Virus record (IMG/VR): IMGVR_UViG_3300020438_000008
Coordinates: 96,852-160,851 of that record
Reading direction: 5' to 3' (one strand)
DNA: 64,000 nt
DNA from: a virus
Positions 19,279 through 62,476 of the stretch are shown one piece after another. Within the stretch, counting starts at the first letter, position 1; each line of letters opens with the position of its first letter. A model generated the notes under the pieces. The model ran no database searches. It was not told the origin of the DNA and saw nothing but the letters and a program-made list of their open reading frames with translations. The position numbers were made by a program, and so were the translations under genes.

Positions 19279-19850
19279 TGAGAGATATAAACTCTGTATT
19301 AGCTAAGGGAACTATCGCAGAATATTATTCATTTTTTAAGAGTGACGAGGAAAAAGTGGGATGGGTCTGTGTCAGACCAGATTATAATCCTGCAATACCT
19401 AATTTTGTGTGGTCTAAAACATGTAGACAACATAAACACGACCAGAACATATGTAATATGTTTATGGATAGTAAGGAAGACTTTAGATACGTTGACCTTA
19501 AAATTAAAGGAGATAGGGAACACAAAGACTATGATGAATTTTTAGATAAACTAATTGAACGTATGAATAAAAATGCAATGCTTATTCATATATCTAGTTG
19601 GATTAGTGGTAAAGATACATCTACAACCTTAAGTAGTAATGGATTATTTGAGTACGTTTTAAATAGAATATGTGATGAAGTAAACAATCACTTTATTTTA
19701 GAAATAACAGACAAAATGTCAAATATAGACGAACCATCGGCTTTAGATTTTATTACAAAAAGGGTAAATACAATAGATAATTGTGTAACTGCATCTTATC
19801 AAAGAGAATTAATAAACGAAGATTTAATTGATTATGTTAGAATCAAATGA
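19278..19850 (+). CDS. Unknown protein between nrdA and nrdB
   Basis: 190 residues from the ATG overlapping the nrdA stop (TAATG). It contains VGWVCVRPDYNPAIPNFVW near the start, several Cys/His residues (KTCRQHKHDQNIC) and a helical C-terminus. No glutaredoxin CxxC is seen, so it is not the usual T4 NrdC. Overlap with both neighbours suggests it is co-translated with the reductase. Function unknown. Confidence 0.65.
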   Translation: MRDINSVLAKGTIAEYYSFFKSDEEKVGWVCVRPDYNPAIPNFVWSKTCRQHKHDQNICNMFMDSKEDFRYVDLKIKGDREHKDYDEFLDKLIERMNKNAMLIHISSWISGKDTSTTLSSNGLFEYVLNRICDEVNNHFILEITDKMSNIDEPSALDFITKRVNTIDNCVTASYQRELINEDLIDYVRIK

Positions 19851-19891
19851 CAAAGAAACAGAATAAGAAAGATAAGAAAGAGAGAAATAAA

Positions 19892-21022
19892 ATGTCAGTA
19901 TTCAATTCCGACAATAGGGCAGACCATACGAAAGCCTTAGCATTTTTAGACCCATCGGGTGGGGTAGCAATTCAACGTTATGATATGCTAAAGTATAAAC
20001 AGTTTGATAAGTTAACAGACAAACAGTTAGGTTTCTTTTGGAGACCAGAAGAAGTGGACGTTCTTAAGGATGCGAATGACTTTAAAAATTTAACAGCCCA
20101 CGAACAACATATTTTTACAAGTAATCTAAAGAGACAAATTCTTTTAGATTCTGTACAAGGTCGTGCACCAGTCGAGGCATTCTGTCCGATTGTATCTATT
20201 CCAGAACTAGAAGCATGGATTCAAACTTGGACATTTTCAGAAACAATTCACTCACGTTCTTACACACATATTATTAGAAATGTGTATTCTGACCCATCAA
20301 AAATCTTTGATGAAATGATGGACATCAATGAGATTATGGATTGTGCAGATGATATTTCTAAAAACTATGATGAATTAATTGAAATGACAGGTTACTATAA
20401 TTTACTAGGTGAAGGCACTCATACAGTAAATGGTAAAAAAGTAGCAATCAGTAAATACGAAATTAAAAAATCTCTATACAAAACTCTTATGAGTGTAAAC
20501 ATTTTAGAAGGTGTTCGTTTCTATGTTTCATTTGCTTGTAGTTGGGCGTTTGCTGAACTAAAAAGAATGGAAGGCAATGCAAAGATTATTAAACTTATTG
20601 CACGTGACGAAAACTTACACTTAGCAAGTACACAAACTCTACTAAAACTTCTACCAAAAGACGATCCAGATTACATAAAGATTGCAAAAGAAACAGAAGA
20701 AGAATGTATTAAGATGTTTGTAGATGCAGTAGAACAAGAAAAACAATGGGCTGAGTATCTATTTAAAGATGGTTCGATGATTGGTCTAAACGCAAAACTA
20801 CTTGAAGATTATATTGAGTGGATTTGTTGTAAACGTATGACCGCAGTTGGACTAAAATGCCCATACAAAACATCACAAGCTAACCCATTACCGTGGACAC
20901 AAAAATGGATTGCTGGTGCTGATGTACAAGTTGCACCTCAAGAGACAGAGATTTCATCTTATGTTATTGGTGGTGTAAAACAAGACGTTGATAAAGAGAC
21001 ATTTGGCGGAATGACTCTATGA
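19892..21022 (+). CDS. nrdB: Class Ia ribonucleotide reductase, small subunit
   Basis: 376 residues from the ATG at 19892, preceded by AGAGAG and aligned with the T4 NrdB N-terminus (MSTVFN; here MSVFNS). An in-frame ATG at 19847 would add a lysine-rich 15-residue tail and overlaps the preceding gene. Di-iron ligand motifs are visible: TWTFSETIHSRSYTHI (Glu, His) and ARDENLHLAST (Glu, His). Generates the tyrosyl radical for NrdA. Confidence 0.95.
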   Translation: MSVFNSDNRADHTKALAFLDPSGGVAIQRYDMLKYKQFDKLTDKQLGFFWRPEEVDVLKDANDFKNLTAHEQHIFTSNLKRQILLDSVQGRAPVEAFCPIVSIPELEAWIQTWTFSETIHSRSYTHIIRNVYSDPSKIFDEMMDINEIMDCADDISKNYDELIEMTGYYNLLGEGTHTVNGKKVAISKYEIKKSLYKTLMSVNILEGVRFYVSFACSWAFAELKRMEGNAKIIKLIARDENLHLASTQTLLKLLPKDDPDYIKIAKETEEECIKMFVDAVEQEKQWAEYLFKDGSMIGLNAKLLEDYIEWICCKRMTAVGLKCPYKTSQANPLPWTQKWIAGADVQVAPQETEISSYVIGGVKQDVDKETFGGMTL

Positions 21023-25373: not shown

Positions 25374-25715
25374 ATGAATATAGAAGAAACAAAACAAAAG
25401 ATTATAGAGAATCTTAAAGGCGTTCACGACCCTGAAATGGATTGTGATGTTTATAATCTTGGATTAATTTACGAAGTAAACGTTGGAGAAATGCCTGATA
25501 CTAAAAAGTATTGTAATATATTAATGTCTCTAACCAGTGCTTTTTGTCCTGCCGCGGACATGATAGTAAATGATGTAAAAGGAGCGGCGTTAACAGTAGA
25601 GGATGTAATAGATTGTCAAGTAGAAGTAACGTTTAACCCTGCTTGGACTCCTGACAGATTAACGGAAGACGGTCATGCATATCTAAACTATATGTATTCA
25701 GATTATATGGATTAA
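25374..25715 (+). CDS. DUF59/MIP18-family protein (PaaD/SufT-like)
   Basis: 113 residues. KGVHDPEMDCDVYNLGLIYE is the MIP18 signature (DPE..+.NLGL), followed by SLTSAFCPAADMIVNDVK (the conserved T-x-x-x-C-P) and VEVTFNPAW (the +V+xxxxPxW motif). Cellular relatives help assemble or insert Fe-S clusters. The phage version may maintain Fe-S enzymes during infection. Placed directly before uvsW with a near-leaderless promoter. Confidence 0.85.
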   Translation: MNIEETKQKIIENLKGVHDPEMDCDVYNLGLIYEVNVGEMPDTKKYCNILMSLTSAFCPAADMIVNDVKGAALTVEDVIDCQVEVTFNPAWTPDRLTEDGHAYLNYMYSDYMD

Positions 25716-32546: not shown

Positions 32547-33485
32547 TTAATAGCCGCCTTCATTCTCTTTTGTGTGTTCGTAAAATGGTGCAAGTTTGAA
32601 GTCTTGTGTAATACGTCCTCTTCTTTTGCTACCTGGGTCTGGAATACCACCTTCATTGTCAGTATCCCAATTAGTAATTTTTACCCATCTTCCTCTATTT
32701 AGAAGTTTATTTCCTTCCTTCAGTGGGAATAAAATAGTGTTCTTTTCGCTAAACTTATTGTAGTAAGGTACACCGTGAAAGCTCCAAATATAGTCCTCAG
32801 AGACATTAAATTGGTCTGCACATAGTTTTACTAGCCCTTCTAATTTAATGTTACCGTCTTTGTCTTTCTGATATCTACCTAATTGTCCAACGTTTTTAAT
32901 TCTCATCATTACGTTGTTTATCTTTTCTTTCTCTATAAGTTCTTTTAATCTTGCTGGTGCTTCATAATTAATCTCTGGAATAATAATAGTACCAGTATTC
33001 AAATTCATTTTTCTATCTACGATATTACGAAGTGCTTTTAGTTTTTTAGTTGCACAACGTAGTTCATCGATTTGTTCATACCAATCATCGTTATCTACTC
33101 CATTCAAACTTAAAGTTACACTACGTAATCCTGCTTCAATTAAAGTATTTAAATATTTTGGACGTGATAATCTTAATCCATTTGTTACTAAAGTACAACT
33201 ATGCTTTCTACCATTGGTACGTCCATGCTCATATACTGCACGAATAAAATTTGCACAGTTAGGAGACATTGTAGGTTCTGCACCGATAATACGTACAAAT
33301 GCTCGACCACCAAGCCTATCCATGAAATCCTTAAATCTATCTAAGTCCATATCAGGTGGTTCTCTGCTAGGTATATAACAGTTCTTACAAGTCATGTTGC
33401 ATTTATGCGTGATATCTGCACATATATCTACAAACGTATTTTCTTCTGGTTCTGTAATCTCATAATTAAAGAGTTTATGAAGCAT
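32547..33485 (-). CDS. Radical SAM enzyme
   Basis: 312 residues from the ATG at 33485 (AAGG site). The [4Fe-4S] motif is CNMTCKNCY (C-x3-C-x2-C), near residue 30, followed by IIGAEPTMSP (the GGEP-like motif) and LVTNGLRL. Layout resembles MoaA/PqqE-type radical SAM proteins; no SPASM cysteine cluster is seen at the C-terminus. First gene of the cassette, under a late promoter on the minus strand. Confidence 0.85.
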   Translation of the reverse strand: MLHKLFNYEITEPEENTFVDICADITHKCNMTCKNCYIPSREPPDMDLDRFKDFMDRLGGRAFVRIIGAEPTMSPNCANFIRAVYEHGRTNGRKHSCTLVTNGLRLSRPKYLNTLIEAGLRSVTLSLNGVDNDDWYEQIDELRCATKKLKALRNIVDRKMNLNTGTIIIPEINYEAPARLKELIEKEKINNVMMRIKNVGQLGRYQKDKDGNIKLEGLVKLCADQFNVSEDYIWSFHGVPYYNKFSEKNTILFPLKEGNKLLNRGRWVKITNWDTDNEGGIPDPGSKRRGRITQDFKLAPFYEHTKENEGGY

Positions 33486-33522
33486 ATAGTTTTGTACCTT
33501 AATAAATATGTTTATGTACATC

Positions 33523-33530
33523 TATTTATC
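33523..33530 (-). promoter_or_regulatory. Late promoter element on the minus strand
   Basis: Reverse complement is GATAAATAG, the same element used by late genes on the plus strand. It lies 38 nt before the radical SAM ATG and inside the space shared with a divergent gene. Confidence 0.75.
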
Positions 33531-33548
33531 GTCCCGGGAAATGCGCCA

Positions 33549-34157
33549 ATGTTAAAGCATTTATACAAATTCGATTATCGAATTGACAAGGACCAACTCA
33601 GAAAAGAACACAAGTTGATGCAAGAAAGTAATGATACTTCTTTGCATAATGTTAATACCGATTTATTAGAAAAAGTTAATGCAGGCAGAGAAACTGGTGA
33701 AGATATTTTCCCTACATATCATGATTTAAAAGATAAAGAGCAATGGGATAATATGGATACTTTGAAAATAAGAGCATTCAATGAATATCAATATCAAGAT
33801 GATTGTCCAGAAATGAAAAGATTAACTAATGATTTTGCTAAGATATTAGATAGTAAAGACATAACACCGTTCTTTGTATTACAAGAGCAAAACTCAGACT
33901 TTCCAATGCATATTGATATGGGGTTTCAATGTGCAATAAACTTAATTATAGATGGTGGAGATACACCAATTATGTTCAGAGAAGACGATGGATCTATACA
34001 TAAATACAACTACGATAACGCATTACTTAACATCTGTAACGTCTTTCACGGTGTACCTAAACAACAAGATATGAAAAGAATGTTACTTAAATTTAGAATA
34101 AAAGATGTATCGTATAATAATGCATGTAAGCGAATGATGGAGTACTTTAGTGAATAA
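33549..34157 (+). CDS. 2OG-Fe(II) oxygenase-like protein A (tandem paralogue)
   Basis: 202 residues from the ATG at 33549. The C-terminal half reads as a dioxygenase jelly roll: His-x-Asp in FPMHIDMGFQCAINL, TPIMFRED, distal His in NVFHGVP and Arg in RMLLKFRI. The next gene has the same arrangement. Divergent from the radical SAM cassette with only 63 nt between the starts. Substrate unknown; the N-terminal 90 residues are unlike the paralogue. Confidence 0.6.
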   Translation: MLKHLYKFDYRIDKDQLRKEHKLMQESNDTSLHNVNTDLLEKVNAGRETGEDIFPTYHDLKDKEQWDNMDTLKIRAFNEYQYQDDCPEMKRLTNDFAKILDSKDITPFFVLQEQNSDFPMHIDMGFQCAINLIIDGGDTPIMFREDDGSIHKYNYDNALLNICNVFHGVPKQQDMKRMLLKFRIKDVSYNNACKRMMEYFSE

Positions 34158-34713
34158 TTCTATACATAATATAGATTTTGATATTGACAAAGATAAGCTA
34201 ATAGAAGAAAGCAATCATTGTCAGTTTGTACCAATCAATCGTGTTACATTAAAACGTGTTCAGTTAGGTAGCTATGATGCAAAAGGTAGAAAGTTTTCTG
34301 ATTATCTTAACAAGGAAGATAAAGATTGGTGGATGCGACAAGATACTTGGCAATCAAGTATGAATGCTGATGCTGATATGTTAACTAAGATGCCAGAGAC
34401 TACTAGAATACTTTCTATATTTAAAGAGAGATTAGACACTAATGATATTGAGGCTAACTTTTTTACGCAAAAAGTAGGCACTAATGTTAAGATGCATGTT
34501 GATGTTGGTACATCTTGTGCTATAAACTTTATACTCAGAGGAGAAGAAACTCCGATAGTATTTGAAGAAGATGGTACATTTTATTATAAAGATGCATTAA
34601 TAAATGTTAGTAAGAAACATATGGTACCAGAACAAACATCTACAGATAGAATGCTTTTTAAATTAAGAATTTTAAATATGCCATTTGAAGAAGTAAGAGA
34701 AAAACTGATATGA
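34150..34713 (+). CDS. 2OG-Fe(II) oxygenase-like protein B (tandem paralogue)
   Basis: 187 residues, GTG start with GGAG 8 nt upstream, overlapping the previous gene by 8 nt. VKMHVDVGTSCAINFIL, TPIVFEED and RMLFKLRILN match the preceding protein position by position, so a gene duplication is clear. The distal His is in KKHMVPEQ, a weaker match. Iron-binding seems kept (H-x-D). Confidence 0.6.
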   Translation: MNNSIHNIDFDIDKDKLIEESNHCQFVPINRVTLKRVQLGSYDAKGRKFSDYLNKEDKDWWMRQDTWQSSMNADADMLTKMPETTRILSIFKERLDTNDIEANFFTQKVGTNVKMHVDVGTSCAINFILRGEETPIVFEEDGTFYYKDALINVSKKHMVPEQTSTDRMLFKLRILNMPFEEVREKLI

Positions 34714-35342
34714 ACAAAAGCCAAATATTTATATTATTACATCATGTATCGTTAGCAGTAGGCATTGCGATGTATGGGTTTCAATGGCCATGGGCTATCG
34801 TAGTATTTTTGTTTGGAATGTTTTGGGCTTGGGTAGTAGGACATAATATTATTCATTATTATTTTGCTCATGGCAAATACGAGGACAATCTTAAAAGTTA
34901 TTTTTATACTTTACTGTCATTAACGTCTGGATTAGGATCACCAATATCATTCAGTGCTTCACACAGACAACATCATAGATTTACAGACACAGAAAAAGAT
35001 CCACACTCGCCACATCATATAGGATGGAAACGTGTATACTTTTTAGATTGGGAACCACAAAATATCAATCCTAGACTTCTTGCTGATTTTGCCAGAAGTA
35101 AATTTCAAAAATGGGTTCACAAACATTGGTATTATTTGCATATTGCAATCGTATTAGTGATTGCTCTTATAGATTTAAGATTGCTATTCTTTGCGTTATC
35201 TCCAGGAGTTCTGTATAGTTTTCACAGTGCCAGTTTGACAAATACATTGTCTCATATTGGCGGAGTGCATAGAAATGTACAGTTGCTAAAACCCCTTGCA
35301 TGGTGGGGGTGGAACCATGCTGACCATCACGATTATAAGTAA
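34710..35342 (+). CDS. Fatty acid desaturase family membrane protein
   Basis: 210 residues with hydrophobic segments near residues 5-45 and 145-170. Histidine boxes of membrane di-iron desaturases are visible: GHNIIHYYFAH, HRQHHRFTDTEKDPHSPHH and the final WNHADHHDYK. The chain stops right after the third box, shorter than stearoyl-type desaturases, so it may be truncated or a minimal form. Located beside ACP and oxygenase genes; it may act on acyl chains in the membrane. Confidence 0.75.
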   Translation: MNKSQIFILLHHVSLAVGIAMYGFQWPWAIVVFLFGMFWAWVVGHNIIHYYFAHGKYEDNLKSYFYTLLSLTSGLGSPISFSASHRQHHRFTDTEKDPHSPHHIGWKRVYFLDWEPQNINPRLLADFARSKFQKWVHKHWYYLHIAIVLVIALIDLRLLFFALSPGVLYSFHSASLTNTLSHIGGVHRNVQLLKPLAWWGWNHADHHDYK

Positions 35343-55027: not shown

Positions 55028-56767
55028 ATGGCCAGTGAAGCAGAAATCGAAAGACTATATCAGGAATTTGTAAATAGAGGCGGAGGTCAATTTACATTCT
55101 CTAATATAAACACTACACCTGCACAATATTATAGTGCAACATCTTCTACATCGTTAACACCAGGACAACAAGCGGCCTTATTAGCAAAGCAAGAACAGTT
55201 TAATAGACAATCTGCATTATCAACTATTGCCAGTGAGTTAGCTGGAAACAATTTTTCTAATCCTTATATAGCAAGAGCAGATAACAGTACAGGTATAATA
55301 AACAATTTTACAAGTATTGGATTAAATCCAACATTAACAAATATAACTGCATTAGCAGGTGCATTCGGTTCGTTTTCTGCTATTGAACAAACTGCTATTT
55401 TTGCCGGCATATTAGAAATGACTGGTGTAGATATGGGTAGTTTTATTAAAGTACTAGGAATAGGTGCATTAGGTCTTGCGTTATTCAGTTCTTTAAAAAA
55501 TCATACATCAGGTCAGATGGCTGATTTACCAAAAACATTATCAGATGCAAGTGCATTAGCAGGAATGAATTCACAGTTTGGTGAACAAAGAGATAGTTGT
55601 TCATTTTTTAATGAAATACTAGGAGTTCTAAGTGGTGCATTCGATGGTACAATGGATTTTATCGATAGTGCTTTTGAAAAGATAAGTGGATTTTTACAAC
55701 AATCTGGATTAGGCGGAATTATAGACCAAATTACAAATGCAATTAGTGGTGCAGGAGGAATTATAGGTGATGTTATTAATGCAGTAGGTAATATTATAAA
55801 TGGTGCAACATCTTTACTCAGCAATGCATTAGGACAAATAGGAAGTTTAATAGGTAAAGTAACAAATGCAATAGCAGACGTAGTAAATCAAATAGCAAAA
55901 GAGGCAGAAAAACTTTTAAATTTAGCAACAGAATTAGCAAGTAAGGCATTAGCTTTAGCAATGGCGGCCGCGGCATTAGACCCATGTCAAATGGCAGTTA
56001 TTCTTAATACAGGAAGTAGTGAAATGAAAGGTGCAGTTAATAAATTAACTCAACCTATGGATACACTTTCTACTGTACCAACTACTATTGATGGTAGAGC
56101 CGATGCAGGTACAGTTATAAAAACTATGGATCAAGCAAAGAGAGAGGCTTCACAAGCACCTGGTGTACCACAATCTCCATTTACTGATACTGCTAAACAA
56201 CATCAACCATTAGATGCATACTTGCATAATTTATTTAATGAAGTTACAGGTATCTTTGGTGATACATTCGATACTATAAAGAATGCAGTTGGTGGAGCAG
56301 TAGTATCTACTGCATCTAACACAGGTTCTTTAGGATCCTCATCAACTTCAACTCCAGCTAAAACGACAACAACTATTTCAAGTGATGCTTGGAGACAATG
56401 GCAAGGAACTTTTTCAAATACATTATTAGGATTAAAAAGAGATATCAAACATCTTAAGATGTTTATACAACAAGCAATTAATACTAAAACTTTTTCTACA
56501 GAAGAATTAAAGAAACAAGCAATCATATTATCAGAAGTGTTAGCAGAAAACGAAACTGCGGTATCTGCCGAATTAAAAAGTGCAAACAATCAGCTAGTAT
56601 ATGAATCAGAAGGAAACAAGTTTAGAATTGATACTAAAGAAAAAGAAAAAATTGAACTTTTAAATTCTAAAGTTGCACCTCATACACAAAGATTAATCAA
56701 TCGTGTACAAAGAGCATATTCTGATTCAGTTGTACAGTGGAATTCTATAGACCAAAACGTTAGATAA
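55028..56767 (+). CDS. Long hydrophobic-helix tail/baseplate hub protein
   Basis: 579 residues from the ATG at 55028 (AGGAG and GAGG upstream). Residues about 200-330 form repeated amphipathic glycine-rich helices (GIIDQITNAISGAGGIIGDV, LLSNALGQIGSLIGKVTNAI), a pattern seen in tape-measure and hub-associated proteins. The C-terminal 150 residues are charged and helical. Next to PAAR, suggesting a baseplate hub role. Function not certain; length is similar to T4 gp29. Confidence 0.6.
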   Translation: MASEAEIERLYQEFVNRGGGQFTFSNINTTPAQYYSATSSTSLTPGQQAALLAKQEQFNRQSALSTIASELAGNNFSNPYIARADNSTGIINNFTSIGLNPTLTNITALAGAFGSFSAIEQTAIFAGILEMTGVDMGSFIKVLGIGALGLALFSSLKNHTSGQMADLPKTLSDASALAGMNSQFGEQRDSCSFFNEILGVLSGAFDGTMDFIDSAFEKISGFLQQSGLGGIIDQITNAISGAGGIIGDVINAVGNIINGATSLLSNALGQIGSLIGKVTNAIADVVNQIAKEAEKLLNLATELASKALALAMAAAALDPCQMAVILNTGSSEMKGAVNKLTQPMDTLSTVPTTIDGRADAGTVIKTMDQAKREASQAPGVPQSPFTDTAKQHQPLDAYLHNLFNEVTGIFGDTFDTIKNAVGGAVVSTASNTGSLGSSSTSTPAKTTTTISSDAWRQWQGTFSNTLLGLKRDIKHLKMFIQQAINTKTFSTEELKKQAIILSEVLAENETAVSAELKSANNQLVYESEGNKFRIDTKEKEKIELLNSKVAPHTQRLINRVQRAYSDSVVQWNSIDQNVR

Positions 56768-58131: not shown

Positions 58132-58989
58132 ATGGACAATAGTGTAATAGAAAAATTTCAAAACTATCGTAAAGATATTGACATGGATTTTATACAAAAA
58201 ACTCATGTTCATTATTGCACACCTTGTTACGGTGGACAAGTAACAGAACCTTTCTTTCGTAGTTGGAGTCGGGCACATATGATGTTTACAAAATATCAAA
58301 TACCCTATTCAGTTACAACAAGTGCAAACGAATCTCTCATTTCAAGAGCAAGATGCCATATGGTGGCTTACTTTATGGCTAATCCAAAAGCAACACATAT
58401 GATGTTTATCGATGCAGATGTTAATTTTGATGCATTAGATATATTACATATGTTACAACATGATAAAGATATCATTGTAGGTGCATATCCAAAGAAAGAT
58501 TTAGATTGGAGAGGAATAGAACGTAAAGTTTTAGGAGGTCGTGCAGATACATTAGAACAACTGCAACGAGCAGGTGCCAACTATGCATTAAACTTTGATT
58601 GGGAAATACTAGAAGATAACACACGTAGAATAAAAAACAAAGATGGTTTAGTGAAATTACGTGATGCGGCTACTGGATTTATGTTAATTAAACGAGAAGT
58701 AATTGAAAAGATGATTGCTTCATACCCAGAGTTGTATTTTGAAAATGATTTAAACTTAGATGAAGAATTCGCTAAGTGGACTTATCTATTTTTTGATTGT
58801 ATGCATGAACAAGATACTAAAAGATATTTGTCAGAAGATTATGCATTTTGTCGTAGATGGCAAGCATTAGGTGGGGAAGTTTGGTTAGACCCACTAATCA
58901 ATTTAGACCACGTAGGTCATTTTACTTTTTCTGGAAATGTTGGTAAGATATTCCAACACGATGCTTCAATAGAAGATGATATAGAATAA
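58132..58989 (+). CDS. Glycosyltransferase, GT-A type
   Basis: 285 residues. TTSANESLISRARCHMVAYF and MMFIDADVNFDALDILHMLQ give the nucleotide-sugar binding DxD motif; GAYPKKDLDWRGIER and a SEDYAFCRRWQALGGEVWLD acceptor region follow. Resembles ANP1/MNN9-like or family-2-like enzymes. It may glycosylate virion proteins, DNA or the cell envelope; not decided by sequence. Terminator follows. Confidence 0.8.
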   Translation: MDNSVIEKFQNYRKDIDMDFIQKTHVHYCTPCYGGQVTEPFFRSWSRAHMMFTKYQIPYSVTTSANESLISRARCHMVAYFMANPKATHMMFIDADVNFDALDILHMLQHDKDIIVGAYPKKDLDWRGIERKVLGGRADTLEQLQRAGANYALNFDWEILEDNTRRIKNKDGLVKLRDAATGFMLIKREVIEKMIASYPELYFENDLNLDEEFAKWTYLFFDCMHEQDTKRYLSEDYAFCRRWQALGGEVWLDPLINLDHVGHFTFSGNVGKIFQHDASIEDDIE

Positions 58990-59186: not shown

Positions 59187-59301
59187 CCTCCTGGTCACAC
59201 ATCAAGCGTTTTGCTTGTTGATGATAACCTTGTCTTGCCAATTCGCTTGCCGCTCTCATACGACCAATATGTTCAAACCATACTACTAATCTCTTAAACA
59301 T
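59179..59301 (-). CDS. 40-residue small protein
   Basis: ATG at 59301 overlaps the stop of the DUF3563-like gene by one base (TAATG). Sequence MFKRLVVWFEHIGRMRAASE then LARQGYHQQAKRLMCDQ is amphipathic helical and compact, reminiscent of tiny proteins in marine phages. Function unknown. Confidence 0.55.
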   Translation of the reverse strand: MFKRLVVWFEHIGRMRAASELARQGYHQQAKRLMCDQEVA

Positions 59302-59453
59302 TACACCCACCCTTTTAAATTCTTATTCATTAAAACTCTTTGTCTACGTTCTAAGTCTTGCAAATCATGTGAGTTAGCAAGATAATCATACTCTTGTTGT
59401 GCCTGTGTTCTAGGTCTTATTGCATTCCATACTTTCTTTATCAACTTAATCAT
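59301..59453 (-). CDS. DUF3563-like small protein
   Basis: 50 residues, MIKLIKKVWNAIRPRTQAQQ followed by EYDYLANSHDLQDLERRQRV. The Y-L-A-x-S-x-D-L-x-D-L-E-R-R core matches DUF3563, short proteins found in proteobacteria and phages. Overlaps the preceding and following genes by one base each, so the cluster is translationally coupled. Confidence 0.65.
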   Translation of the reverse strand: MIKLIKKVWNAIRPRTQAQQEYDYLANSHDLQDLERRQRVLMNKNLKGWV

Positions 59454-59653
59454 TAATTTTTACCTTTCGTTGGAAACATCTTTCCATTGATATATGTAGT
59501 CTTTGGTCCAATACCTGTTTGGATCATTGTTTGATAGGCATATTCCCAATCGTTCTTGTACTCTGTTTTGGCCCATGTTTCAAATTCTCTTTCTCTACGC
59601 CCAGGTTTAGCCGAAAAGACATTGATAAGGCCGCTGAAAAAATTCAACGTCAT
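59453..59653 (-). CDS. 66-residue small protein, first of minus-strand cluster
   Basis: ATG at 59653 with GGAG 8 nt upstream. NFFSGLINVFSAKPGRRERE is basic and hydrophobic, then FETWAKTEYKNDWEYAYQTM is helical and aromatic-rich. Similar small proteins occur in marine T4-like phages. Function unknown. Confidence 0.6.
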   Translation of the reverse strand: MTLNFFSGLINVFSAKPGRREREFETWAKTEYKNDWEYAYQTMIQTGIGPKTTYINGKMFPTKGKN

Positions 59654-59776
59654 TTTACGTTCTCCGTATTAAATAAATTTTTGTTATGCTTGAGGACAGC
59701 AATACCCTGAGTCTTTTCTCAGTGTCACAGGTCTTTCCCAGTCGCCAATACAAAAAAGGACTTTTTGTATCACTTT
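59654..59776 (-). other. Structured leader of minus-strand cluster
   Basis: About 120 nt between the promoter palindrome and the first small gene. It contains two hairpins: ATACAAAAA / TTTTTGTAT (59748-59770) and CTGAG / CTCAG (59707-59722). No protein gene is supported. Could be a regulatory leader. Confidence 0.45.
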
Positions 59777-59790
59777 TATTTATATAAATA
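59777..59790. promoter_or_regulatory. Palindromic, bidirectional late promoter
   Basis: TATTTATATAAATA is a perfect 14-bp palindrome giving the T4 late consensus TATAAATA on both strands. Minus-strand reading would drive the small-gene cluster (59653 to 59015); plus-strand reading points to the 59.8 kb region. Confidence 0.65.
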
Positions 59791-59898: not shown

Positions 59899-59927
59899 TT
59901 GATTTTCTATAGTAAATATGTTATTAT
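59899..59927 (+). promoter_or_regulatory. Host sigma70-type promoter before yggX
   Basis: TTGATT (59899-59904), 17-bp spacer, TATTAT (59922-59927). GGAG ribosome site before the start. Confidence 0.72.
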
Positions 59928-59955
59928 AGTTATGTAATATTACAAAGGAGACATG

Positions 59956-60240
59956 ATGCCTAAAGTTTTTTGTGCAAAATATAATGAAGAACTACCCGGA
60001 TTAGAAAAGGCACCCTTCCCTGGAGAAGCAGGTAAGAGAGTGCTTGATACTGTTTCAGAAAAAGCATGGAATGAATGGTTAAACTTTCAAACTATTCTTA
60101 TTAATGAAAATAGATTAAATCTAATGGACGAAGGTGCTAGAAAGTTTCTATCAGAAAATAGAGATAAGTTCTTATATGAACCTGGTGAACTTGCAATGCC
60201 TGAGCAATATAGAGATCCGAATGTTCCTGATTTGAGATAG
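59956..60240 (+). CDS. yggX: YggX-like Fe(II)-trafficking protein
   Basis: 94 residues. VFCAKYNEELPGLEKAPFPG, then EKAWNEWLNFQTILINENRL and NLMDEGARKFLSENRDKFLY match the YggX family, which in bacteria protects Fe-S clusters from oxidative damage. The single conserved cysteine is in VFCAKY. GGAG lies 5 nt before the ATG at 59956 (another ATG at 59953). I am not aware of this gene in well-known T4-like phages. Confidence 0.85.
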   Translation: MPKVFCAKYNEELPGLEKAPFPGEAGKRVLDTVSEKAWNEWLNFQTILINENRLNLMDEGARKFLSENRDKFLYEPGELAMPEQYRDPNVPDLR

Positions 60241-60255
60241 AAAGAGATAGTAAAA

Positions 60256-60861
60256 ATGGAAATAAGATGTGTAGACCCAGAATATCCCGTATGGGAGTTG
60301 ACTAAACTTGAACTACCTGATTTAGACGTTAATGCATTAAGAGGTGACGAAAGTAAAAGTGCGTTACCGATTAATAAGAAACGTGAACCAATGATGTTGA
60401 ATTGGAGTAATCAAAATCATTTTAATTTTAAGGAATGTTGGATTCAACGTAAAGCAATCTTACAAGATTATATAAAGGGACGAGCATACGAAGAATGTGA
60501 TGAAATAATGCCTATGTGGCCTAATAAGTTTGAAACGTTTGATTGGGGAACTGGAGAAGGTTCTGTACAAATAATACATGATAGAACAGGATTTCAAATG
60601 GGACCTCATATTGATAATCGTATGGTAATAGGAGTAATGATTGTAAATCTACAAGATAACCCAGAAGGATCTGGTACAAATTTTCATGTAGATAGGGATA
60701 CACCAGAGCATTGGTATAGTGGTCCTACAAGAAGAAACACAGGAATATTTTTTCTTAACAATTGGAATACATGGCATAGTATTCAAAACAATGGGCATGA
60801 CAGACTTATCTGCTATGATATTATGCATTTAGGTGAAATGTTCAGATTTGGAAACGGATAA
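60256..60861 (+). CDS. 2OG-Fe(II) oxygenase-like protein
   Basis: 201 residues. MGPHIDNRMVIGVMIVNLQD provides His-x-Asp, NNWNTWHSIQNNG the distal His and HDRLICYDI the Arg. A third oxygenase group in this window, distinct in sequence from those at 9605 and 33549. Follows yggX at 15 nt with an AGAG-type ribosome site; iron handling may be a shared theme. Confidence 0.7.
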   Translation: MEIRCVDPEYPVWELTKLELPDLDVNALRGDESKSALPINKKREPMMLNWSNQNHFNFKECWIQRKAILQDYIKGRAYEECDEIMPMWPNKFETFDWGTGEGSVQIIHDRTGFQMGPHIDNRMVIGVMIVNLQDNPEGSGTNFHVDRDTPEHWYSGPTRRNTGIFFLNNWNTWHSIQNNGHDRLICYDIMHLGEMFRFGNG

Positions 60862-60863
60862 CA

Positions 60864-61265
60864 TTGAAGAAATTAGTTTGGAAAATACACTTAACAGCCT
60901 CAGATGTCAATGCTGGCGGGACAGTTAGTGGTGGCAGATTGTTTGATATGGCAGACGTTTCTGCTTATACAATGATTAATGAAACGTTTACTAGTATGAG
61001 ACCAGAGTTATCAGTTGTAACAAATGGTGCAAATGTAAAATTTATTGCACCTGCATTTGCTTATGGTTTTATAGAATCATATGCAGAGATAGTTGAAGTT
61101 ACTCCTGCAAAGATAAATGTACTTATTACTATGAATTATAGACAAAATAAAGGCTTAGATTGGTATAAATGTTTTGAGGGTATATTCAGTTTTACTTGTT
61201 TAAATGCTGATACTCGTAAAGTTTATAAAATGACGAAAGAGGATATGAATGAAATTCAAGGCTAA
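60864..61265 (+). CDS. Hotdog-fold acyl-CoA thioesterase-like protein
   Basis: 133 residues, TTG start 2 nt after the preceding stop with a GGA site. ASDVNAGGTVSGGRLFDMAD matches the N-terminus of 4HBT/YciA hotdog thioesterases (Asp-x-Asn/G-x-GG), then NVKFIAPAFAYGFIESYAEI the central strands. Possible partner of the ACP, or acts on CoA thioesters. Overlaps the epimerase gene by 17 nt. Confidence 0.65.
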   Translation: MKKLVWKIHLTASDVNAGGTVSGGRLFDMADVSAYTMINETFTSMRPELSVVTNGANVKFIAPAFAYGFIESYAEIVEVTPAKINVLITMNYRQNKGLDWYKCFEGIFSFTCLNADTRKVYKMTKEDMNEIQG

Positions 61266-62169
61266 AGTATTAGTAACAGGTGGTGCAGGTTATATAGGCA
61301 CAGAATTAGTTAAGCAATTACTGGATAAAGGATACGATGTAACAATATTAGATAAAAAAGAAAAGCCTGAATTAGATAGTAGAGTAAAATATATTCAAGG
61401 AGATTTGCAGAGTGCCGCACGTTGCGTAATGGCATGTGCTGGTCAAGAATTTGTTATTCATCTAGGAGCAAAGCCTCGCATACCAGAAAGTTTTATTAAT
61501 CCAGATGAGTACTTTGATAATAATGTTACTGGTACTAAAAATATACTAACAGCCGCAAGTGCAGTTGGTGTAAGAAAGTTTGTATTTGCTAGTAGTAGTT
61601 CTATTTACGGTAATAATCAGACTCCACATAAACCTTATCATAAGCCTGATCCACTAAATTATTATGCAATGACAAAAATATTTGGTGAACATTTGTGTAA
61701 ACAATATAAGAATATGTTTGGATTGACATATAACATATTGCGTTTCTTTACAGTATATTCAGAAAATCAACCAAACTCTAATACTGGTGGACTGATGATA
61801 GGAAAGTTTGGAAGACTTGCAAAAGAGAATAACCCATTGACAATACACGGCGACGGAGAATATAAAAGAGATTATATACATGTTTCTGATGTAGCAAAAG
61901 CATGTATTTCTAGTATTGAGTCAAAAGTAAGAAATGAGATATTTAATGTAGGAACAGGAACTAATATTTCAGTTAATAAAGTAGTAGATATTATAAGAGA
62001 GTTTAAAGATGTTACTGTAGTACATGAAGAAAATCCAAGAGGTTATGCACAAGAAACATTAGCAGATATAAGCAAAGCAAAGAAGTTATTAGGGTGGGAA
62101 CCTAAAATCAATCAAGTAGAAGGAATAAGAAAAACATATAAGGAGATATTTAATGAACAAACAGATTGA
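61249..62169 (+). CDS. NAD-dependent sugar epimerase/dehydratase (GalE-like)
   Basis: 306 residues. Glycine motif TGGAGYIG (residues about 10-17), catalytic Ser/Thr in FASSSSIYG (about 113-121) and Tyr-x3-Lys in YAMTK (about 137-141). Extended SDR of the UDP-glucose 4-epimerase type. It may provide nucleotide sugars for the glycosyltransferase at 58.1 kb. Overlaps the next gene by 17 nt. Confidence 0.88.
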   Translation: MKFKAKVLVTGGAGYIGTELVKQLLDKGYDVTILDKKEKPELDSRVKYIQGDLQSAARCVMACAGQEFVIHLGAKPRIPESFINPDEYFDNNVTGTKNILTAASAVGVRKFVFASSSSIYGNNQTPHKPYHKPDPLNYYAMTKIFGEHLCKQYKNMFGLTYNILRFFTVYSENQPNSNTGGLMIGKFGRLAKENNPLTIHGDGEYKRDYIHVSDVAKACISSIESKVRNEIFNVGTGTNISVNKVVDIIREFKDVTVVHEENPRGYAQETLADISKAKKLLGWEPKINQVEGIRKTYKEIFNEQTD

Positions 62170-62476
62170 ACCTATTAGAGAAAAATTAGACGAAAAAATT
62201 AAACAACTTAACTCTAGTAGAGTATTCAAAAAGGTTACACCTAAATATGATTTATCTTGGTATGTAAAATGGGTTGCTTCTATAATGATATTGATTGCGA
62301 CTTGTGCCAGAGCAACTGGAACTATACCGCAAGTTGATTTATGGTTTGGTTTGTTTGGGACACTAGGTTGGTTTTGGGTAGGTATGTTGTGGCATGACAG
62401 AGCATTAATAATGCTTAATGGAGTGCTTGTAACCCTAATTTTCATGGGTCTATTAAAGTTTTATTTTGGAGTTTAA
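62153..62476 (+). CDS. Small three-helix membrane protein
   Basis: 107 residues with hydrophobic segments about 35-52, 60-76 and 84-103 (VKWVASIMILIATCARATG, WFGLFGTLGWFWVGMLW). The sequence resembles DUF6552-type proteins of marine phages. Follows the epimerase with a 17-nt overlap. Function unknown. Confidence 0.65.
   Translation: MNKQIEPIREKLDEKIKQLNSSRVFKKVTPKYDLSWYVKWVASIMILIATCARATGTIPQVDLWFGLFGTLGWFWVGMLWHDRALIMLNGVLVTLIFMGLLKFYFGV

Follow-up and report, generated by a model that had tools for sequence, protein, structure and literature searches.

A lineage of giant, mostly uncultured phages encodes the iron-trafficking protein YggX and is, as far as our searches reach, the first phage lineage found to do so; its copies constitute a viral branch, apparently not described before, of an established protein family. 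The gene was studied in a 64,000-nucleotide stretch of DNA (the window) corresponding to bases 96852-160851 of a virus record 160,851 bases long (Table 1). We regard the phage yggX as a host-derived auxiliary gene whose product would be a working YggX, protecting iron and Fe-S centres and supporting the iron enzymes of the phage, an interpretation to which we give about an even chance of being right. On that interpretation it would resemble phage auxiliary metabolic genes for Fe-S and iron as a class, which are likewise host-derived, specify small metabolic proteins and are retained under selection.

Table 1. Features of the window discussed in the text (positions are those of the window).
Feature	Position	Strand	Basis or remark
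NrdB, class Ia ribonucleotide reductase small subunit (di-iron)	19847..21022	+	confirmed by search
DUF59 / FeS_assembly_P protein	25374..25715	+	PF01883, 5e-12
Radical SAM protein	32547..33521	-	profile
2OG-oxygenase-like protein	33405..34157	+	HxD...H...R motif only
2OG-oxygenase-like protein, 33% identical to 33405..34157 protein	34150..34713	+	motif only; predicted fold pLDDT 56, too poor
Fatty acid desaturase-like protein	34710..35342	+	di-iron histidine boxes by inspection
Lineage backbone gene, phrog_1574	58132..58989	+	glycosyltransferase-like by inspection only
Small protein, 50 aa, divergent gene	59301..59453	-	conserved in relatives
Small protein, 66 aa, divergent gene	59453..59653	-	conserved in relatives
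Sigma-70-like promoter TTGATT-17-TATTAT, TG before -10	59899..59927	+	conservation upstream of yggX in relatives
Ribosome binding site AAAGGAG	59942..59948 (approximate)	+	sequence
yggX (PF04362), 95 aa, Cys-7 conserved	59953..60240	+	profile, equivalog, alignment
Predicted Fe(II)/2-oxoglutarate oxygenase, 201 aa, H118-x-D120, H174, R183	60256..60861	+	motif and predicted fold; variable neighbour
Hotdog-fold thioesterase-like protein	60864..61265	+	weak PF03061, E 0.0018, below curated cut-off; in 29 of 39 loci
NAD-dependent nucleotide-sugar epimerase/dehydratase	61249..62169	+	constant downstream partner of yggX
DUF6552 protein	62153..62476	+	profile match

The window is phage DNA because it encodes a terminase, a virion protein, a single-strand binding protein, a UvsX-like recombinase and a class Ia ribonucleotide reductase, together with a tail tube match. 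Its terminase is 56% identical to that of the Pseudomonas jumbo phage PA5oct, which is the closest deposited terminase, and the contigs that carry near relatives of the window reach 342 kb. The PA5oct-like jumbo phages (Arenbergviridae) share this terminase likeness, but PA5oct, unlike the YggX phages, has neither YggX nor a radical SAM domain in the same searches. That yggX belongs to the viral genome, and not to contaminating bacterial DNA, is seen from about 40 contigs that share its order of genes. Scattered reading frames between positions 2921 and 55015 of the window fall into the Clp protease, PTPS (QueD-like), acyl carrier, nitroreductase, TnsA-like nuclease and PAAR families.

The original prediction of a strong, full-length likeness to YggX is borne out. 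Residues 1-89 of the 95 match all 88 positions of the PF04362 Iron_traffic model (E 1.4e-31; 108.5 bits against a cut-off of 27), and the NCBIfam equivalog PRK05408 scores 106.2 bits against a cut-off of 74. The reading frame is intact, with an ATG start and a ribosome binding site. Solved structures related to the phage protein by alignment are those of Pseudomonas PA5148 (1t07), 2mzy and E. coli YggX (1yhd, 1xs8). Cys-7 is invariant across the aligned phage and bacterial sequences, and the core residues W39, W42, Q46, INE 50-52, R63 and L66 are kept. PMC11078426, and the JBC 2003 study cited there, describe Cys-7 as critical in YggX, and the same paper and its citations give the roles of the cellular protein as general protection against oxidative stress and iron transport. 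YggX binds Fe(II) weakly (Kd about 1e-5 to 1e-6 M) and has been proposed to donate iron (PMC3989283). The full-length match, Cys-7 and the core residues are thus held in common with cellular YggX, whereas the C-terminal tail is distinct in the group of phages that resemble the window. The activity of the phage protein could have drifted, since its identity to the bacterial copies that were fetched does not exceed 58%. The genetic setting differs too: in many Gammaproteobacteria yggX adjoins mutY, but the phage gene has no mutY neighbour and instead heads a phage operon in front of an epimerase gene. Neither mutY nor a SoxRS-regulated operon, both typical of yggX without defining it, is present, and the phage gene begins an unrelated operon.

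The YggX proteins of the lineage form a single clade among the gammaproteobacterial copies in two trees (support 100/99), and in the second tree this clade groups with sequences from Moraxella, Reinekea/Thalassolituus and SAR86 at a fork with support of 98/89; with about 91 columns in the alignments, the deeper placement is weak. Between phages, dN/dS is mostly 0.02-0.24, at synonymous sites that are often near saturation, and the gene is retained even where the proteins have diverged to about 51% identity. These low ratios indicate purifying selection and therefore a protein that has been kept working. YggX also occurs in short viral contigs with other gene contexts (L302:2233-2505, L303:2419-2691 and L304:4001-4264), which are possibly separate captures; an independent origin for L302/L303 and L304 was considered and set aside, for they stand apart in the tree but an AU test does not reject a single clade (p 0.18). 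A Moraxella-type YggX in a record titled Streptomyces cinereus (L051, BMPS01000012.1) lies in surroundings of 44% GC and is probably contamination.

The gene is common in bacteria, being present in 171 of 185 sampled Gammaproteobacteria genomes, so a gammaproteobacterial host would probably own one. Among deposited phages the outcome was otherwise. A tblastn search of 50,697 phage records matched the same three records with the window-type and the second-group YggX as queries, and in those that were read YggX was never found in a phage context. One of them, 'Acinetobacter phage MD-2021a' (L060, CAKLQH020000023.1), has argH, hemC, thiC and tolC around yggX, as in a bacterial chromosome, and is probably a mislabelled bin; a second MD-2021a contig has its YggX match at the same place, one of the two contigs having been read. 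The third is a Salmonella chromosome with the order mutY-yggX-mltC. No paper on a phage yggX was found in the open-access literature by title or abstract. The proposal of a phage-encoded YggX is thus correct in substance, and the gene appears new with respect to deposited phages: a homology search places it in the YggX family, a gene common in the Gammaproteobacteria but not in phages that have been deposited.

In the window, yggX is the first gene of an operon. A gap of 15 bp separates it from the oxygenase gene and 2 bp separate the latter from the thioesterase-like gene, which is overlapped by the epimerase gene, itself overlapped by the DUF6552 gene. The promoter-like layout upstream of yggX is found again in most relatives, and a 34-base pattern built from the aligned relatives has one match in the window and none in shuffled sequences. 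The promoter assignment is based on this conservation, since a plain consensus scan of the window gave 24 sites compared with 22.6 in shuffles, which is no excess. Two divergent small genes lie on the other side of this promoter. The leader of the divergent small gene next to it contains two conserved hairpins (window 59654-59740, minus strand) that are seen also in L163, L166, L170 and other loci, with paired changes among 11 sequences (U-A to C-G in four, G-C to A-U in four). The hairpins have no Rfam match, nor does anything between positions 56700 and 62600. The string AGGGTATTGCTnnCCTnAAGCA is present in this leader and nowhere else in the window. Between the divergent genes and yggX, at 59777-59790, is TATTTATATAAATA, with TATAAATA on both strands. 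We take TATAAATA to be the T4 late-promoter core; the window holds only 4 copies of it against about 10 expected.

In IMG/VR a profile scan picked out 44 contigs that encode a YggX relative, and 40 of these are from the present lineage. One of the 40 ends just past yggX, and the remaining 39 (some of them near-duplicates) have enough downstream DNA for gene order to be counted. The epimerase gene is downstream of yggX in all 39, the thioesterase-like gene in 29 and the oxygenase gene in 12. Upstream, a YeaH-SpoVR pair (SpoVR by PF04293) occurs in 21 of the 39. A second group within the lineage has this pair directly before yggX (L039, L042, L043; SpoVR loci L184-L207), with peptide deformylase-like genes shortly 3' of yggX and a ferredoxin-like gene in L043. 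The backbone gene at 58132 was used as a probe for further relatives and brought to light nine contigs that share this backbone (L163, L165-L170, L172 and L173) in which the epimerase gene has no preceding yggX. YggX is therefore an accessory gene with a constant position, at which it has been either acquired or deleted. In the YggX-lacking loci a promoter-like TTGCTA-17-TATAAT leads straight into the epimerase gene (six scored; intergenic DNA read in L163, L166 and L170). Whole-record searches of four YggX-lacking records, which are fragments, found no YggX elsewhere in them.

The original prediction had set YggX beside an Fe(II) oxygenase, and part of this stands. The two genes do adjoin in the window and the observation is not a matter of chance, since both recur in relatives. 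At E 0.01 Pfam gives no match for the oxygenase (PF13640 appears only below its cut-off), but the HxD pair (H118, D120), the distal H174 and the 2OG-binding R183 are invariant in eight homologues. Its AlphaFold2 model (pLDDT 86) retrieves PHD2, PolD, PasI and other Fe/2OG enzymes in Foldseek (probability 1.00, E 7e-7, TM about 0.5-0.6), and the protein is thus predicted to have the double-stranded beta-helix fold of the Fe(II)/2OG oxygenases. The pairing itself is not conserved, with an oxygenase in 12 of 39 loci compared with the epimerase in 39 of 39, and on this distribution the oxygenase was rejected as a dedicated partner of YggX.

The wider suggestion that the phage is heavily invested in iron chemistry holds in part. 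NrdB, the DUF59 protein and the radical SAM enzyme are all present in the window as had been proposed, and a desaturase-like protein can be added to them; the 'at least four' 2OG oxygenase-like proteins reduce to one by fold and two by motif only. The stronger support comes from outside the window, in the 7-20 radical SAM domains (PF04055) of related records, counts that include some matches below the curated cut-off. The window's own record has 7, a 342,607-base relative 17, a 187 kb relative 8, and two second-group records, seemingly of the same phage, 19 and 20. Lineage records of 246-343 kb have 17-20 such domains and three shorter ones 0-2. Radical SAM islands lie at G001:C1:94000-108000 (L314), G006:C1:18000-32500 (L315), G006:C1:322500-342181 (L316) and G000:C1:16000-35000 (L313). 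The sampled clusters have CxxxCxxC motifs and are set among epimerase-, aminotransferase- and methyltransferase-like genes that resemble, by inspection, those of sugar or surface biosynthesis. Campylobacter phages CP220 and CPt10 are similarly rich, with 11 and 12 radical SAM proteins (PMC2853527), although the YggX phages reach 17-20 domains per record; our recount of CP220 with the radical SAM profile gave 11, the published number. YggX was not found in CP220 or in G202, a 322 kb record with 19 radical SAM domains. A higher count in YggX phages (7-20, in longer records) than in YggX-lacking relatives (0-1) was considered but is not claimed as an excess, because the latter are fragments that by gene position miss the main cluster region and because CP220 and G202 are also rich without YggX. 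A functional link between YggX and the iron enzymes is only suggestive. NrdB does not need YggX, since it is kept in three of the four YggX-lacking relatives searched over the whole record, and DUF59 is found only in records that resemble the window.

Our preferred interpretation, in which the phage protein serves the iron enzymes of the phage, is supported by the presence of NrdB and of 17-20 radical SAM domains in the same lineage. A narrower form of it, that YggX maintains viral Fe-S proteins by keeping the many oxygen-sensitive radical SAM enzymes of what appear to be sugar- or surface-modification islands working in air, seems to us rather unlikely. Somewhat more credible, if still doubtful, is that an increased dose of YggX shields host enzymes and DNA during a long infection, independently of any phage iron enzyme. 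General oxidative protection is the role reported for YggX (PMC11078426), and in 21 of 39 loci the gene follows YeaH- and SpoVR-like genes whose products are also homologues of host proteins. Most Gammaproteobacteria own a yggX, so a second copy may have a mere dose effect. Such care of the host gives no reason for the occurrence of YggX in a lineage so rich in iron-dependent enzymes, although that link is only suggestive.

The constancy of the epimerase gene downstream of yggX could indicate that YggX belongs functionally with the epimerase/thioesterase module (surface-sugar modification being one example) and has a role other than iron handling. We consider this improbable: nine relatives keep the epimerase without YggX, and the invariant family residues, Cys-7 included, favour the ancestral role. 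It is more improbable again that YggX serves specifically to supply iron to the oxygenase encoded next to it. The genes are neighbours on the same strand, 15 bp apart, and the oxygenase fold is supported, but 27 of the 39 YggX loci are without an oxygenase, and in the same phages the oxygenase proteins are just 52-57% identical when YggX is 93-94% identical, a far faster divergence. We give equally little credence to a yggX that was taken from a host and is kept by hitchhiking in the operon as a neutral passenger. Its accessory distribution and its absence from relatives would suit a passenger; the strong purifying selection, measured at synonymous sites that are often near saturation, and the retention of the gene down to about 51% identity do not, and the dN/dS values already disfavour this reading.

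If the phage yggX is a working host-derived gene, we infer that it would head its operon and be transcribed, probably early, from the sigma-70-like promoter. Its product would do what has been reported for the cellular protein: handle loosely bound Fe(II), limit the damage done to Fe-S clusters by oxygen and superoxide, and lower Fenton damage. The iron supply of the infected cell might in this way be kept fit for the class Ia ribonucleotide reductase, the radical SAM enzymes, the 2OG oxygenases and the desaturase, and the host may perhaps be served as well. The presence and absence of yggX before the same epimerase gene provide natural pairs in which to ask what benefit YggX confers. The lineage offers a testable case for viruses that manage the labile iron and the Fe-S integrity of their hosts, beyond merely taking iron from them.
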